Shown piece by piece: positions 1 through 62,584 of a DNA stretch of 64,000 nucleotides; position 1 is the stretch's first letter, and every line of letters begins with the position of its first letter. The stretch is from Crossiella sp. SN42 (GTDB taxonomy: Bacteria > Actinomycetota > Actinomycetes > Mycobacteriales > Pseudonocardiaceae). The notes under the pieces were generated by a model, which was given only the letters and a program-made list of their open reading frames with translations, had not been told where the DNA came from and did not search any database. The stretch is taken from NCBI RefSeq assembly GCF_023897065.1, contig NZ_JAMHIV010000002.1, positions 62,001-126,000 on the forward strand. Direction: 5' to 3'. Position numbers and translations under genes: made by a program.

Positions 1-3000
1 CCACGTACTCGCCACCGGCGACCGCGGCCCAGTCCGGCGCGGGCAACGCGCGGCGGTCCAGTTTTCCGTTGGGGTTCAACGGGAGCCGGTCCAGTTGGAG
101 CACCGCGGCCGGCACCATGTACTCGGGCAGTCCGCTGCCGAGGAAGGCGCGCAGCTCGGCGGAGTCCACCGGGGACTCGGCCACCACGTAGCCGACCAGG
201 CGCTGGTGCCCACCGTCGGTGCGGGCCACCGCGACCGCCTCGGTGACCGCCGGGTGCCGCAGCAGCGCGGCCTCTACCTCACCGAGCTCGATCCGGAAGC
301 CGCGGATCTTGACCTGATCGTCGGCCCGGCCCAGGTACTCGAGGTCGCCGTCGGCGTTCCAGCGCACCACGTCCCCGGTGCGGTACATGCGTTCACCGGG
401 CGCGCCATAGGGGTTGGCCATGAACCGGTCGGCGCTCAGGCCGGGCCGGTGCAGGTAACCGCGGGCCAGACCGCGCCCGGCCAGGTACAGCTCGCCGGGC
501 ACGCCGATCGGCACCGGACGCAGGTTTCCGTCGAGCACGTAGGTCTGGATGTTGCTGACCGGCTTGCCGATCGGCGGCGTGCTCCGCTGCTCGCTGCCGT
601 CGGAGTACCAGGCGGTGGCGTAGACGGTGGCCTCGGTCGGGCCGTAGATGTTGGCGATCCGCCCGCCCGGCAACGCGGCCTGGATCTCCCTGGTGGCGTG
701 CGCGGACAGGCCCTCTCCGGCCAGCACCACGTGTTCGGCGGAGACGGTCACCGCGCCCTGCGCCAGCACCTGGGCCAGCGCCGAGGGCACCGCGCTGACC
801 AGGCTGGCCCGCAACGGTTCGGCCCGTTCCTCCCCCAGTGCCAGCACGTTCGCCACCACCTCGATGCGGCCGCCCAGCACCAGCGGGCAGAAGATCTCGA
901 ACACCGAGACGTCGAAGTTGAGCGAGGTGGAGGCGACCACCGAGGACAGCGCGGCCGGGCCGAAGTCGCAGGCGGCCCAGGCGGTCAGGTCGGCCAGGCT
1001 CTCGTGCGCGATCACCACGCCCTTGGGGCGGCCGGTGGAGCCGGAGGTGTAGATGCTGTAGGCGGCGTGCGCCGGGTCCAGCGGGAGCAGGCGGTCCGCG
1101 TCGGTGATGTCCACATCGGACAGTGCGGTCAGCTCGTCGGTGATCCGGTCCAGTTCTTCGGCGGTGAGCACCAGGATCGGGTCGGCGTCGGCGATCATGA
1201 ACTCGATCCGGTCGGCCGGGTAGGCCGGGTCGATCGGCAGGTAGGCCGCGCCGGACTTCAGGATGGCCAGCAGCGCGACGATGGTCTGCTCGGTGCGCGG
1301 CATGGCGATGCCGACGAACCGCTCCGGCCCGGCGCCCTGGCCGATCAGCCAGCGGGCCAACCGGTTCGCCCGCCGGTTCAGCTCGGCGTAGGTCAGCTCG
1401 CGGCCGGCGTGGGTGACCGCGACCGCCGCCGGGGTACGCGTGGCCTGGCGGGCGAACAACTCCGGGTACAGCGCGGGTTCCACCGCCAGTGCGGTGTCGT
1501 TCCAGCCACGCAGCACCTGCTGCCGCTCGGCACCGGTGAGCAGCGGCAGTTCGCCGAGCGGGGCCTCCGGGCTGGCCAGGATTCCGTTGAGCAGGACTTC
1601 CAGGTGCTCGGTGAGCCGGGCGATGGTGCTGCCGTCGAACAGGTCGGTGTTGTACTCCACCGCCACGGTCAGCCCGTCGGCGCGCGGCCAGAACTCGCAC
1701 ACCAGGTCGAACCGGGACCGCGGGCGCGGCAGGTCCTGCTCGGCCAGGCGCAGCTCACCGATGGCGCGGGGCCGCACGATCGCGTTCTGCAGCACCACCA
1801 GGGCCTGCACCAGCGGGGTGCGGCTGGCGTCCCGGTCCAGGCGCAGCTCTTCCACCAGGCGGTCGAACGGGGCGTCCTCGTGCGCGAAGCCGGCCAGCAC
1901 GGTCTCCCGCACCTGGGCGAGGAACTCGGTGAACGGCAGCTTGCTGTCCACTGTGGACCGCAGCACCACGGTGTTGACCAGGAACCCGGCCAGGCGTTCC
2001 AGTTCGGCGCGGTTGCGGCCGGAGGTGGCGGTGCCGACCGCGATGTCGGACCGGTTGCTGTAGCGGGCGAAGAGCACCTGTACCGCGGCGGTGAGCAGCA
2101 TGAACAGCGTGGCACCGCGCTCGCGCCCCGCCGAGGTGAGCTTGTCCACCAGGGTGGCCGGCAGCAGGTGGCGGTGCACCGCGCCGGGATTGGTGCGCAC
2201 CGGCGGGCGCGGGCGGTCGGTGGGCAGCTGCAACGGCTCCACCCCGGCCAGCCGCTCCCGCCAGTAGGCCAGCTGACCGGCCAGTTCCGGGCTGTTGAGC
2301 CGGTCCTGCTGCCAGGCGGCGTAGTCGGCGTAGCGCACCGGCAGCTCGGGCAGCCGCGGCTCCCGGTGCTCGGTGGCGGCCGCGTACAGCTCGGCGAGCT
2401 CCTCCACCAGCAGCGACACCGAGGCGCCGTCGGTGACGATGTGGTGCTGGCACAGCAACAACACCTGGTCCTCGGCGGCCAGGCGGACCAGCAGGGCGCG
2501 GGTGAGCGGGCCGCGGCGCAGGTCGAAGGGCCGGTCCAGCTCCTCGGCCAGCACCGCCTCCAGGGTGGCCGGCCCGGCCTCGGCGGTGGCCAGCGGGATG
2601 ACCGCGGTGGCCGCCACGACCTGCTCGGGCACGCCGCCGGACTCGGTGAAGGTGGTGCGCAGCGACTCGTGCCGGGCGGCCAGCGCGTCCAGGGCGCGGC
2701 GCAGCGCGTCGGCGTCCAGCGGACCGGTCAGGCGCAGGCCGACCCCGGTGTTGTACTCGGTGCCGCCGGTCAGGTTGTCCAGCAGCCACATCCGGTGCTG
2801 CGCCGAGGACAGCGGCAGCGGCCGGTCCACCGGCGCGGCCGGGATCACCACACCGTCCACAGTGGACGGTTCGGGCAGCGCGGCGGCCAGCTCGCGGATG
2901 GAGCTGGTCTCGAACAGCAGCCGGGGGGACAGCTCGACGTCGAAGGCGGCCCTGATCCGGGCCAGCGCGCGGAAGGCCAGCACCGAGTCGCCGCCGAGGG

Positions 3001-60600: not shown

Positions 60601-62584
60601 AGACCGCGGCGGCGGCGATCTCGCCCTGGGAGTGGCCGACCACCGCGGAGGGGTTGACGCCGAAGGAGGCCCAGACCGCGGACAGCGAGACCATCATGGC
60701 CCACAGCGCGGGCTGCACCACGTCCACCCGGTCGAAGCCGGGACCGTTGCCGCGCAACACTTCCAGGAGGTCCCAGTCGGTGAACTCGGCCAGCGCTTCG
60801 GCGCACTCGGTCATCCGGGCGGCGAACACCGGCGAGGAGTCCAGCAGTTCCAAGGCCATCCCGGCCCACTGCGAACCTTGACCGGGGAAGACGAAGGCGA
60901 CCTTGTCACTGGCCCGGGCGGTGCCACGCACCAGGTTCCCGGCCGTGCCGTCGGCGGCGAGGGCGTCCAGCGCGGAGCTGAAGCCGTCCCGGTCGGCGGC
61001 GATGACCACGGCGCGGTGCTCGAAGGCGCTGCGGCCGGTGGCCAGCGAGTAGGCGGTGTCCAGCACGGACAGGTCGGGCTCACTGTCCACAGTGGACTTA
61101 AGTCGGACGGCGGTCTCGCGCAGCGCCTCGGGGGTGCGGGCGGAGAGCAGCCAGGGCAGCACCTGAGGTTCGCTCTGCTCAACCGGTTCCGGCTCAGGAG
61201 CGGCCTCGATCACGGCGTGCGCGTTGGTGCCGGAGACACCGAAGCTGGACACCGCGGACCGGCGCGGACGCCCGGTCTCCGGCCAGGGCTGGGCCTCGGT
61301 GAGCAGGGACACCGCACCGGCGGACCAGTCGATCTGCGGTGAGGGCTCGTCCACGTGCAGGGTCTTGGGCAGCACGCCGTGCCGCATGGCCATGACCATC
61401 TTGATGATGCCGCCCGCGCCCGCGGCGGCCTGGGTGTGCCCGATGTTGGACTTCAGCGAGCCCAGCCACAGCGGCTGCTCGTCGGTGTGCTCGCGCCCGT
61501 AGGTGGCCAGGAGTGCCTGCGCCTCAATGGGATCGCCGAGCTTGGTGCCGGTGCCGTGCGCCTCCACCGCGTCCACCTCGGCGGCGGTGAGCCCGGCGTC
61601 GGCCAGGGCCTGCCGGATCACCCGCTGCTGGGAGGGACCGTTGGGGGCGGTCAGTCCGCTGCTGGCGCCGTCCTGGTTGACCGCGGTGCCGCGCACCACG
61701 GCGAGGATCGGGTGGCCGTTGCGCTGGGCGTCGGAGAGCTTCTCCAGCAGGATCATGCCCGCCCCCTCGGCCCAGGAGGTGCCGTCGGCGGCCGCGGCGA
61801 AGGACTTGCAGCGGCCGTCCGGGGCCAGGCCGCGCTGGCGGGAGAACTCGACGAAGGCCGCGGGGGTGGCCATCACCGCGACGCCACCGGCCAGCGCGAG
61901 GGAGGTCTCTCCCTTGCGCAGCGAGCGGACCGCGAGGTGCAGCGCGACCAGCGAGGAAGAGCACGCCGTGTCGATGGTGACCGAAGGCCCTTCCAGGCCA
62001 AGGGTGTAGGACACCCGGCCGGAGACCACACTGCCGGAGCTGCCGGTGGCCAGGTAGCCCTCCACGCCCGGCGGCACCTCGTGCATCCGCGGCGCGTAGT
62101 CGTGGTACATCAGGCCCGCGTACACGCCGGTCTTGCTGCCACGCAAGGAGTTCGGGTCGATGCCGGCCCGCTCGAAGGCCTCCCAGGAGGTCTCCAGCAG
62201 CAGCCGCTGCTGCGGGTCCATGGCCAGGGCTTCACGCGGGGAGATGCCGAAGAAGTCCGGGTCGAACTCGTCGGCGTCGTGCAGGAACCCGCTTTCGCGC
62301 ACGTAGGCGGTGCCGGAGCGGTCCGGGTCGGGGTCGTACAGGGATTCCAGGTCCCAGCCGCGGTTGACGGGGAACGGCGTGATGCCGTCCCCGCCCGCCG
62401 CGACCAGGTCCCACAGCTGTTCGGGGCTGCTGACCCCGCCGGGGAACCGGCAGGCCATGCCGATGATCGCGATCGGCTCCTGGTCCTGGGACTCCAGCTC
62501 GGCCACCCGTCGCCGCGCGTCGCGCAGGTCGACGGTGGCCCGCCGGAGGTAGTCCAGGAGCTTCTGCTCGTTTTCGTTCGACAC
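51686..62584 (-). CDS. type I PKS, two modules: KS-AT-KR0-ACP and KS-AT-DH-ER-KR-ACP (EryAII/PikAII-like)
   Basis: 3632 residues from a GTG at 62584. Module 1: KS (Cys208), AT (Ser652, YASH, methylmalonyl), degenerate KR, ACP (Ser1461). The KR cofactor loop is TGAAGPLG, the LTSRRG segment is missing (LPGAAPEL), and the catalytic Asn is Ser (YAAGSAYL), although Tyr1299 is kept; it should not reduce. Module 2: KS (Cys1691, DTACSAS), AT (Ser2134, YASH), DH (His2437 in [11 protein letters not shown]), ER ([12 protein letters not shown] near 3019), B-type KR (LDD, Tyr3347), ACP (Ser3515). The set KR0 then DH-ER-KR equals that of EryAII, PikAII and the tylosin module 4-5 protein. Expected output: a ketone followed by a fully reduced, methyl-branched unit. 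Confidence 0.96.
56720..56732. repeat. 13-bp palindrome GTCCACAGTGGAC
   Basis: Exact copy in the KS-to-AT linker of the second module of the 51686-62584 PKS (MSTVDG). Confidence 0.85.
61085..61097. repeat. 13-bp palindrome GTCCACAGTGGAC
   Basis: Exact copy in the KS-to-AT linker of the first module of the 51686-62584 PKS (KSTVDS). Confidence 0.85.

Follow-up and report, generated by a model that had tools for sequence, protein, structure and literature searches.

What is a 13-bp palindrome doing at nine places in the antibiotic-type megasynthase genes of Crossiella sp. SN42? The window, by which we mean the whole 64,000-nucleotide stretch analysed here, contains GTCCACWGTGGAC nine times in exact form, whereas 100 dinucleotide shuffles yield 0.03 on average and never more than 1. 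A first-pass annotation, made from the sequence alone, had read these copies as marks of domain junctions in NRPS and PKS genes, and had offered a mobile or recombinogenic element, a signal at the DNA level, or a seam for module shuffling as explanations.

Palindrome copies in the window

All nine exact copies lie where they had been reported (Table 1), as do the four one-mismatch copies (27442, 33279, 43304 and 44279); of two shorter matches of 11-12 bases, the one at 48421 is right and the other begins at 25586 rather than 25587. The near relatives GTCCACTTCGGAC, GTCCACATCGGAC and GTCCACTGAGGAC are likewise real, and are members of one wider motif. The copies do read as S-T-V-D on the minus strand, which is the strand of the megasynthase genes, and eight of the nine do sit in linkers: seven PKS sites fall in the KS-AT linker domain or in a linker and site 2855 in the gap between PCP and C domains, while site 1946 is within a C domain. 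The last two belong to an NRPS gene (2-4672, minus strand; Pfam domains A, PCP, C, A) and were placed by arithmetic from the Pfam domain positions. Sites 38649 and 48765 have common flanking protein sequence, and sites 35652 and 56720 occupy an equal KS-AT position; some copies in the window look like duplicates from repeated modules. The initial observation is thus correct, yet it is a small part of a larger phenomenon.

Table 1. Exact palindromes and further sites of the wider motif in the window.
Feature	Coordinates	Strand	Context
Exact site GTCCACTGTGGAC	1946..1958	.	Condensation domain, NRPS gene (minus)
Exact site	2855..2867	.	Carrier/condensation-domain linker, NRPS (minus)
Exact site	35652..35664	.	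KS-AT linker domain, PKS (minus)
Exact site	38649..38661	.	PKS linker; flanks resemble site 48765
Exact site	41813..41825	.	PKS C-terminal linker
Exact site	46947..46959	.	C-terminal end, PKS gene 46875-51644 (minus); overlaps next gene's open frame
Exact site	48765..48777	.	PKS linker
Exact site	56720..56732	.	KS-AT linker domain
Exact site	61085..61097	.	KS-AT linker domain
GTCC-NN-W-NN-GGAC site	1109..1121	.	
GTCC-NN-W-NN-GGAC site	22472..22484	.	Sole site from 4.7 to 27.4 kb
GTCC-NN-W-NN-GGAC site	27442..27454	.	
GTCC-NN-W-NN-GGAC site	27858..27870	.	
GTCC-NN-W-NN-GGAC site	28197..28209	.	
GTCC-NN-W-NN-GGAC site	29091..29103	.	VLSGL repeat type
GTCC-NN-W-NN-GGAC site	31570..31582	.	
GTCC-NN-W-NN-GGAC site	35064..35076	.	
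GTCC-NN-W-NN-GGAC site	36054..36066	.	
GTCC-NN-W-NN-GGAC site	39221..39233	.	VLSGL repeat type
GTCC-NN-W-NN-GGAC site	40674..40686	.	
GTCC-NN-W-NN-GGAC site	42362..42374	.	
GTCC-NN-W-NN-GGAC site	45866..45878	.	
GTCC-NN-W-NN-GGAC site	49340..49352	.	VLSGL repeat type
GTCC-NN-W-NN-GGAC site	50151..50163	.	
GTCC-NN-W-NN-GGAC site	51683..51695	.	Gene junction
GTCC-NN-W-NN-GGAC site	53957..53969	.	
GTCC-NN-W-NN-GGAC site	54493..54505	.	VLSGL repeat type
GTCC-NN-W-NN-GGAC site	55822..55834	.	VLSGL repeat type
GTCC-NN-W-NN-GGAC site	58835..58847	.	

The palindrome is a genome-wide, DNA-level signal

A genome-wide count, which the first-pass annotation had called for, found 473 exact W-centred copies in the 9.72-Mb Crossiella genome (~49 per Mb) and none of the reversed control; the S-centred form occurs 12 times and its control once. 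The nine copies in the window exceed the 3.1 predicted from the genome mean (Poisson P = 0.005), though the window was picked for that excess. The full motif is GTCC-NN-W-NN-GGAC (GTCCNNWNNGGAC), with arms exactly 5 bp apart: in 464 kb this spacing occurs 107 times, and any other spacing between 0 and 13 only 7-35 times. The centre is W in 87 cases and S in 20, whereas 15 other arm pairs give 0-6 W and 7-61 S. From the density outside PKS/NRPS stretches we extrapolate ~1,400 sites in the genome, mostly intragenic and evenly spread.

If codon context produced the motif, S-T-V-D peptides should use threonine codons as other peptides do. Instead, 51 of 52 use ACA or ACT, compared with 797 of 16,429 threonine codons overall (4.9%), so that the counts are not those expected from S-T-V-D codon context, and the palindrome is almost certainly a signal at the DNA level rather than a codon or protein effect. 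Asymmetric forms occur in both orientations relative to the coding strand, which disfavours a strand- or loop-specific RNA signal and favours a duplex site.

Sites are spread uniformly along genes (KS P = 0.94). Called ORFs contain 159 of 181 sites (156.5 expected), at least three of the 22 unassigned sites (1109, 1946 and 2855 in the window) being coding in an open-ended frame, and the first 150 nt of genes hold 16 (12.1 expected). No chromosomal unevenness was seen among 20 and 15 sampled sites in two single-contig genomes, and neighbouring sites showed no 10.5-bp phasing (P = 0.67), just the 3-bp coding phase, in 34 close pairs with six non-actinomycete loci omitted.

Sites originate by substitution

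A mobile element should leave insertions, but 21 of 22 sites aligned between genomes G000 and G001 are gapless and their differences are substitutions, contrary to gain by insertion; at one site the centre flipped between A and T and the site was still kept. Sites are retained better than control palindromes between the closest species: 18/22 vs 108/204 from G000 to G001 (P = 0.012), though less clearly in reverse, 18/21 vs 108/164 (P = 0.08). For W centres at wobble positions the values are 13/15 vs 177/371 (P = 0.003) and, in reverse, 13/15 vs 165/480 (P = 6e-5). From G000 to G002, 16/22 sites and 104/204 controls are retained. Against the more distant G003, retention is no better than control (G001 8/19 with controls 84/133; G002 8/18 with 79/138; G000 5/9 with 80/139); in the other direction, from G003, it is 8/9 and 5/6.

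A PadR-family regulator is the likely partner

In genomes with few copies, the context of the palindrome points to a candidate protein. Both copies adjoin a PadR gene in Rhodococcoides and in a Propionibacteriales MAG. Among 15 other low-copy loci, the copy is at such a gene in 3 and in other contexts in 12 (genomes with one or two copies, including G043, with the single copies of G005, G008 and G026 left out; PadR genes located by tblastn). The one member scanned scores above cut-off for PF03551 and PF10400, and for another an AlphaFold model (mean pLDDT 80, pTM 0.63) matches PadR structures.

Searching from the protein, we found a PadR with a TRSQ recognition helix in 36 of 36 genomes examined of the family f1, and all 36 promoters match the motif with no more than 2 mismatches (W-centred in 35, S-centred in one), in 34 cases as a pair of sites 21-23 bp apart, compared with 9 of 342 windows elsewhere at these loci, kinship being ignored. 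Across 59 protein-first loci, again ignoring kinship, 53 promoters match, compared with 15 of 550 other windows, and 6 lack a match within 2 mismatches; the centres are 88 W and 1 S, although counting mismatches itself favours W. At this threshold no match turned up for four distant PadR paralogs or for a second, higher-scoring PadR of G035 (L139). The TRSQ PadR thus has a site in its own promoter. In most of these promoter sites the outer GT is missing on one side (GACCACTGTGGAC), and those of high-copy Crossiella and some Micromonosporaceae (L164-L169) are weak, with 2-3 mismatches (ATACACAATGGAC, GACCAATGTGGAC).

Across 60 genomes, 30 of 47 with a strong ortholog and 0 of 13 without have at least 10 copies, a tally in which the 130-bit and 10-copy cut-offs were chosen post hoc and related genomes are not independent; G048 (82% complete), which lacks a strong ortholog, holds 8 copies. 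Some genomes with 0-1 copies (G007, G025, G005, G008, G026) carry the ortholog too, which is thus no predictor of iteration. G039 has two such PadRs, and 100 kb of it holds nine dispersed GTCC-type sites and no TTCC-type site, so that the dispersed motif agrees with the operator of the TRSQ PadR and not with that of the TQSQ PadR. Judged from these sequence comparisons, PadR is the likely partner of the palindrome.

A model for genome-wide PadR binding

The palindrome matches the control site of a conserved PadR, suggesting that PadR binds to a very large number of chromosomal positions. We put the probability at about two in three that the palindromes are genome-wide sites for PadR dimers acting in the manner of a nucleoid-associated protein. 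In such a model, dispersed 13-bp protein-binding sites of the type GTCC-NN-W-NN-GGAC, with GTCCAC as the best half-site and A/T at the dyad, would be read as double-stranded DNA by a winged-helix PadR homodimer, the palindrome being their strong version. The dimer is predicted to bind GTCCACWGTGGAC tightly and GTCCACSGTGGAC more weakly, with occupancy at GTCCNNWNNGGAC genome-wide. Its own promoter, usually carrying a pair of sites 21-23 bp apart in Pseudonocardiaceae, may mediate autoregulation. Point substitution would create sites wherever protein sequence and GC-biased codon choice permit, usually in the coding form G|TCC|ACW|GTG|GAC (STVD), and these would then be kept for a time. Many dispersed dimers could organise or silence DNA, and a nucleoid role of PadR is what we infer from this arrangement.

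In a broader version, several actinomycete lineages (Pseudonocardiaceae, Micromonosporaceae and others) would have turned PadR into a protein that binds its specific sequence chromosome-wide, and their coding sequences would have been reshaped, to the point where the peptide STVD appears, to hold more than 1000 sites, a nucleoid code dense in antibiotic megasynthases. This version is tentative, and in our estimate somewhat more apt to be wrong than right.

Several chromosome-organising proteins bind palindromes of 12-16 bp (matS/MatP, the SlmA and Noc sites, parS), at tens of regional copies. The present sites differ in numbering hundreds or more and in showing no uneven spread in the samples from two single-contig genomes. 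The mycobacterial protein NapM (Rv0047c), a PadR-family nucleoid-associated homodimer with 573 ChIP-seq sites (PMC13340245; PDB 8JXK), is closer in family, and its fold and that of the PadR model are alike (TM 0.55-0.68); the excerpted text of that report gives no palindromic site. NapM itself was rejected as the partner or its ortholog, since it matches the Crossiella G003 protein at 19.7 bits (E = 0.007) and has another recognition-helix sequence. Bacillus subtilis PadR, solved on operator DNA (PDB 5X11), has family and fold in common with the PadR considered here.

Alternative explanations

PadR could instead be an ordinary transcription factor whose many intragenic sites regulate weakly or titrate it as decoys, without a structural role. 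The site in its own promoter fits this, as does the rpoA-L17 spacer, where a site is conserved, but neither gene starts nor intergenic DNA is enriched. Usual regulons have far fewer sites than there are palindromes here. We consider this explanation unlikely, though it is the best of the alternatives.

Slightly less probable still is a process like that proposed by Elhai for cyanobacterial HIP1 (PMC4390886), in which an orphan DNA methyltransferase and linked repair bias make and keep copies, and the likeness to a PadR operator is secondary. HIPs, as described in the excerpted text of that article, are like the Crossiella palindrome short, over-represented, dispersed and patchy between relatives, and the palindrome is likewise formed by substitution; the article states that HIP sequences are accompanied, in all cyanobacterial genomes that have them, by a methyltransferase predicted to recognise part of the sequence. 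The Crossiella palindrome, however, has another sequence and, being 13 bp long with degenerate inner positions around a W centre, resembles a dimer operator. Though far above expectation and dispersed genome-wide, it is less dense, at ~49 exact copies per Mb and ~141 W-sites per Mb outside PKS/NRPS stretches, than HIPs, for which the same text gives 1000-2000 per Mb. Its candidate partner looks like a PadR regulator rather than a methyltransferase, and the PadR promoter match is specific.

The seam or mobile-element explanation fares far worse. Site density is indeed about twofold higher in PKS/NRPS stretches (339 vs 141 per Mb; 263 vs 144 without the window), and exact copies in PKS genes favour linkers (16 of 24 linker-type vs 33% expected, P = 7e-4, one site being counted twice), which bears out part of the proposal that the motif is tolerated where protein sequence is free; for all W-centred PKS sites the preference is weaker (31 of 71, P = 0.06), 39 of the 71 lying in catalytic domains and 1 in a KR structural subdomain. 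PKS cluster C15 has just 2 sites in 40 kb. The 141 sites per Mb outside these stretches argue against a mark of megasynthase junctions, and since sites occur genome-wide, core regions included, a module seam finds no support; the substitution origin, and the resemblance of some PKS copies to duplicates of repeated modules, make it very improbable.

The actinobacterial DnaA box TTGTCCACA has GTCCACA at its core. This 7-mer occurs once per W-centred palindrome, but we reject DnaA boxes as the least probable explanation: TTGTCCACA itself occurs only 1 + 2 times in 464 kb, the flanking TT is not favoured, and the enriched object is a symmetric 13-mer with N5 spacing.

Implications and wider occurrence

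We know of no agreed function for iterated palindromes such as HIP1, and here one has a concrete candidate partner, in antibiotic-producing genera. If PadR occupies the dispersed sites, GC-rich bacteria would have a nucleoid protein directed by a palindrome, silenced biosynthetic clusters might be reached through it, and a DNA-binding demand would be seen to override codon and amino-acid choice genome-wide. In these genera, STVD-type peptides of PKS linkers should be read with caution, as they reflect a function of the DNA and not of the protein.

Our search of open-licence literature returned no report of the motif among the matches listed. In a viral collection, the raw count of stretches with the 15-mer CGTCCACAGTGGACG is 69. 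Copy numbers are patchy across Actinomycetota: hundreds in this chromosome and in many relatives, mostly within genes, with 640 exact copies in Herbihabitans rhizosphaerae.

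An iterated W-centred palindrome in Crossiella

All nine exact copies of the 13-bp palindrome GTCCACWGTGGAC that the first-pass annotation had placed in the window were recovered at the same positions, against an average of 0.03 in dinucleotide shuffles. At up to two mismatches the window holds 35 matches (2.1 expected); its NRPS gene and PKS genes are all encoded on the minus strand. Across the 9.72-Mb Crossiella sp. SN42 genome (G000), GTCCACWGTGGAC occurs 473 times and the reversed control not once. The form with C or G at the dyad (S-centred) has 12 copies, although codon usage would favour it, since ACC and ACG make up 95% of Thr codons.

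Over 464 kb, made up of the window and 400 kb of contig C1, GTCC and GGAC arms are enriched at 5-bp spacing only (107, versus 7-35 at the remaining spacings from 0 to 13). The dyad of GTCC-N5-GGAC is W in 87 cases and S in 20; for 15 other arm pairs these counts are 0-6 and 7-61, respectively. The 174 half-sites include GTCCAC (92), GTCCGA (20), GTCCTC (14) and GTCCAA (11), and the near relatives of the palindrome noted earlier prove to be members of this wider GTCC-NN-W-NN-GGAC class (W-sites). When every 4-bp arm and gap was scored, with nothing chosen beforehand, GTCC-N5-GGAC ranked 1st in the window and a stretch of Herbihabitans rhizosphaerae (G011), 2nd in C1 and the core of another Crossiella, G001, and 4th in the core of a third, G002. 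It fell outside the top six in the cores of G000 and a fourth Crossiella (G003), as well as in the related genome G039 and the zero-copy genomes G007 and G025.

A 964-kb sample of G000 contains 181 W-sites, 159 of them within called ORFs (156.5 expected), evenly distributed over ORF length (KS P = 0.94). Their codon phases (129/27/3) are consistent with GC3 bias, and ACA or ACT is used in 51 of 52 STVD peptides, versus 797 of 16,429 Thr codons in the sample.

Enrichment in PKS/NRPS genes

W-sites are denser in PKS/NRPS stretches than elsewhere (339 versus 141 per Mb, P = 2e-8), also with the window left out (263 versus 144 per Mb, P = 9e-4); averaged over 20 control arm pairs, W-centred sites number 2-14 per Mb. 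The proposed preference for inter-domain linkers stands for exact copies in PKS genes (16 of 24 linker-type, one counted twice, versus a null of 33%) and barely for all W-sites (31 of 71). Free sequence and module duplication may account for the raised density. Among individual clusters, that on contig C45 has 333 sites per Mb, and a near-siteless one on C15 is perhaps a recent arrival. The five copies of a second sequence, GTCCACTGAGGAC, look like a single homologous PKS position multiplied through module duplication.

Coordinates of features discussed in the text
Feature	Location	Detail
GTCCACTGAGGAC copies	window 29091, 39221, 49340, 54493, 55822	each VLSGL on minus strand
Near-siteless PKS cluster	G000:C15:36001-76000	2 W-sites in 40 kb; GC 0.698
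Palindrome pair between PadR and DUF1707 genes	L076:3024-3093; L085:2352-2385; L090; L098	
Copy at start of PadR gene	L119; L124; L126	
Gene with three GTCCACWGTGGAC	L081; L086; L092; L109	within ~80 bp of coding sequence
Head-to-tail palindromes, Herbihabitans	35993-36018	L056-L060 joined and reverse-complemented

A conserved PadR-family regulator as candidate partner

Genomes with one or two copies were inspected for a candidate binding partner. Rhodococcoides and a Propionibacteriales MAG carry two copies in each genome counted, 33-35 bp apart and flanked by a PadR-family gene on one side and a divergent DUF1707 gene on the other, likely a shared operator. Three of 15 other low-copy loci have a copy at the start of the same type of PadR gene; in the remaining 12 it lies in other contexts. 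A profile was built from six such proteins, one of which, when scanned, contained PF03551 and PF10400. Strong matches (~141 bits or more) were found in 36/36 genomes of family f1, taken as Pseudonocardiaceae, regardless of copy number, with one per genome save two in G035. The gene that comes next codes for a peptide-chain release factor (by Pfam at locus L147; prfB was recognised by sequence at other loci). The profile also scores at least 148 bits, a strong match, in fifteen of 18 named motif-bearing genomes; the others are a Rhodobacteraceae (8 copies), Roseovarius (3) and Luteolibacter (3). Among 60 genomes, at least 10 copies occur in 30/47 with a strong ortholog and 0/13 without, with cut-offs set afterwards and kinship uncorrected. 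An AlphaFold model of the Propionibacteriales protein (mean pLDDT 80, pTM 0.63) places the conserved RSQVYREL in helix 40-52 and matches PadR structures; the mycobacterial nucleoid-associated protein NapM (8JXK) is among the closest by TM-score, but despite this likeness its orthology was rejected by sequence.

Promoters were then located via the protein rather than the motif. Within 250 bp upstream of padR, a match with at most two mismatches, typically rrCCACWGTGGAC, is present in 36/36 f1 promoters versus 9/342 other windows of the same loci. Paired sites 21-23 bp apart (at most three mismatches) occur in 34 of the 36; the two zero-copy genomes lack a pair, G007 having a single S-centred site and G025 a single site. 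Across all protein-first loci, 53/59 promoters match versus 15/550 windows (L139 and paralogs left out). A smaller tally of 38/45 included three motif-first loci and one duplicate, and is 34/41 without them. Four distant PadR paralogs gave zero promoter matches within two mismatches. In G039, which has two related PadRs, 100 kb contain nine GTCC-type and no TTCC-type dispersed motifs; thus the dispersed motif follows the operator of the TRSQ-type rather than the TQSQ-type regulator.

The palindrome is best read as a dispersed predicted binding site, based upon its shape, its W dyad and its match to sites in the promoter of a single conserved regulator. Since the sites are evenly spread over gene bodies, a nucleoid-like role is favoured over a promoter-centred one, and we put the probability that they are sites of a PadR dimer acting in this way at roughly two in three. 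The main rival is a HIP/methyltransferase model, in which a candidate methyltransferase would lie behind the iterated palindrome. More tentatively, and somewhat short of an even chance, PadR may have turned into a chromosome-wide binder in several actinomycete lineages, with coding sequences reshaped to hold more than 1000 putative sites.

Distribution across genomes

At least one exact copy is present in 42 of 60 genomes (G000 and 59 relatives), with a range of 0-640 per genome; G001 has 500 and G011 640. In a phylum-wide draw of 246 genomes, 12 have any copy, namely G000 and 11 with 1-2. Further named genomes were reached via paired sites and are hence selected for the motif; they include Virgisporangium (Micromonosporaceae; 331 and 450), Allokutzneria (426), Streptoalloteichus (277), Amycolatopsis (228 and 145) and Actinocatenispora (139). 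Within f1, larger genomes have a higher copy density (33 genera with one genome each, Spearman 0.64; kinship uncorrected). Two genomes of one genus, G043 and G056, have 1 and 114 exact copies and both encode the PadR ortholog, a pair suited to finding the driver of copy gain.

In two alphaproteobacteria (Rhodobacteraceae and Roseovarius), copies lie chiefly within one gene family. One near-identical gene with three GTCCACWGTGGAC recurs in Rhodobacteraceae, Roseovarius and Lutimaribacter and is probably mobile. Its product might, at a guess from sequence, be a helix-turn-helix, replication-protein-like protein, and its three copies resemble iterons within a rep gene.

Retention among Crossiella genomes

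Between G000 and G001, 21/22 sites lie in gapless alignment, and differences are substitutions, frequently in the degenerate inner positions; at one site G003 reads AAC where G001 and G002, both site-bearing, read AAT.

Retention of the motif and of control palindromes between Crossiella genomes
Comparison	Motif kept	Controls kept	P
G000 to G001	18/22	108/204	0.012
G000 to G002	16/22	104/204	
G000 to G003	5/9	80/139	
G001 to G003	8/19	84/133	
G002 to G003	8/18	79/138	
G001 to G000	18/21	108/164	0.08
G003 to G001	8/9	84/167	
G003 to G000	5/6	77/147	

W centres at wobble positions are kept in 13/15 cases in each direction between G000 and G001, versus 177/371 and 165/480 controls (P = 0.003 and 6e-5); from G001 to G003 the figures are 7/16 versus 95/306, not significant. 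Thus, sites outlast controls among the closest species, yet turn over at the distance of G003. Because retention at that distance is no better than control, and because in Crossiella itself the candidate sites at the padR promoter are weak, our confidence in both PadR readings is slightly reduced.

The rpoA-L17 spacer (identities of both genes checked by Pfam in Herbihabitans) carries a palindrome copy that is conserved across four genomes of Crossiella and in Herbihabitans. In Herbihabitans, the rpoA-containing open frame has two directly abutting head-to-tail palindromes at its upstream end.
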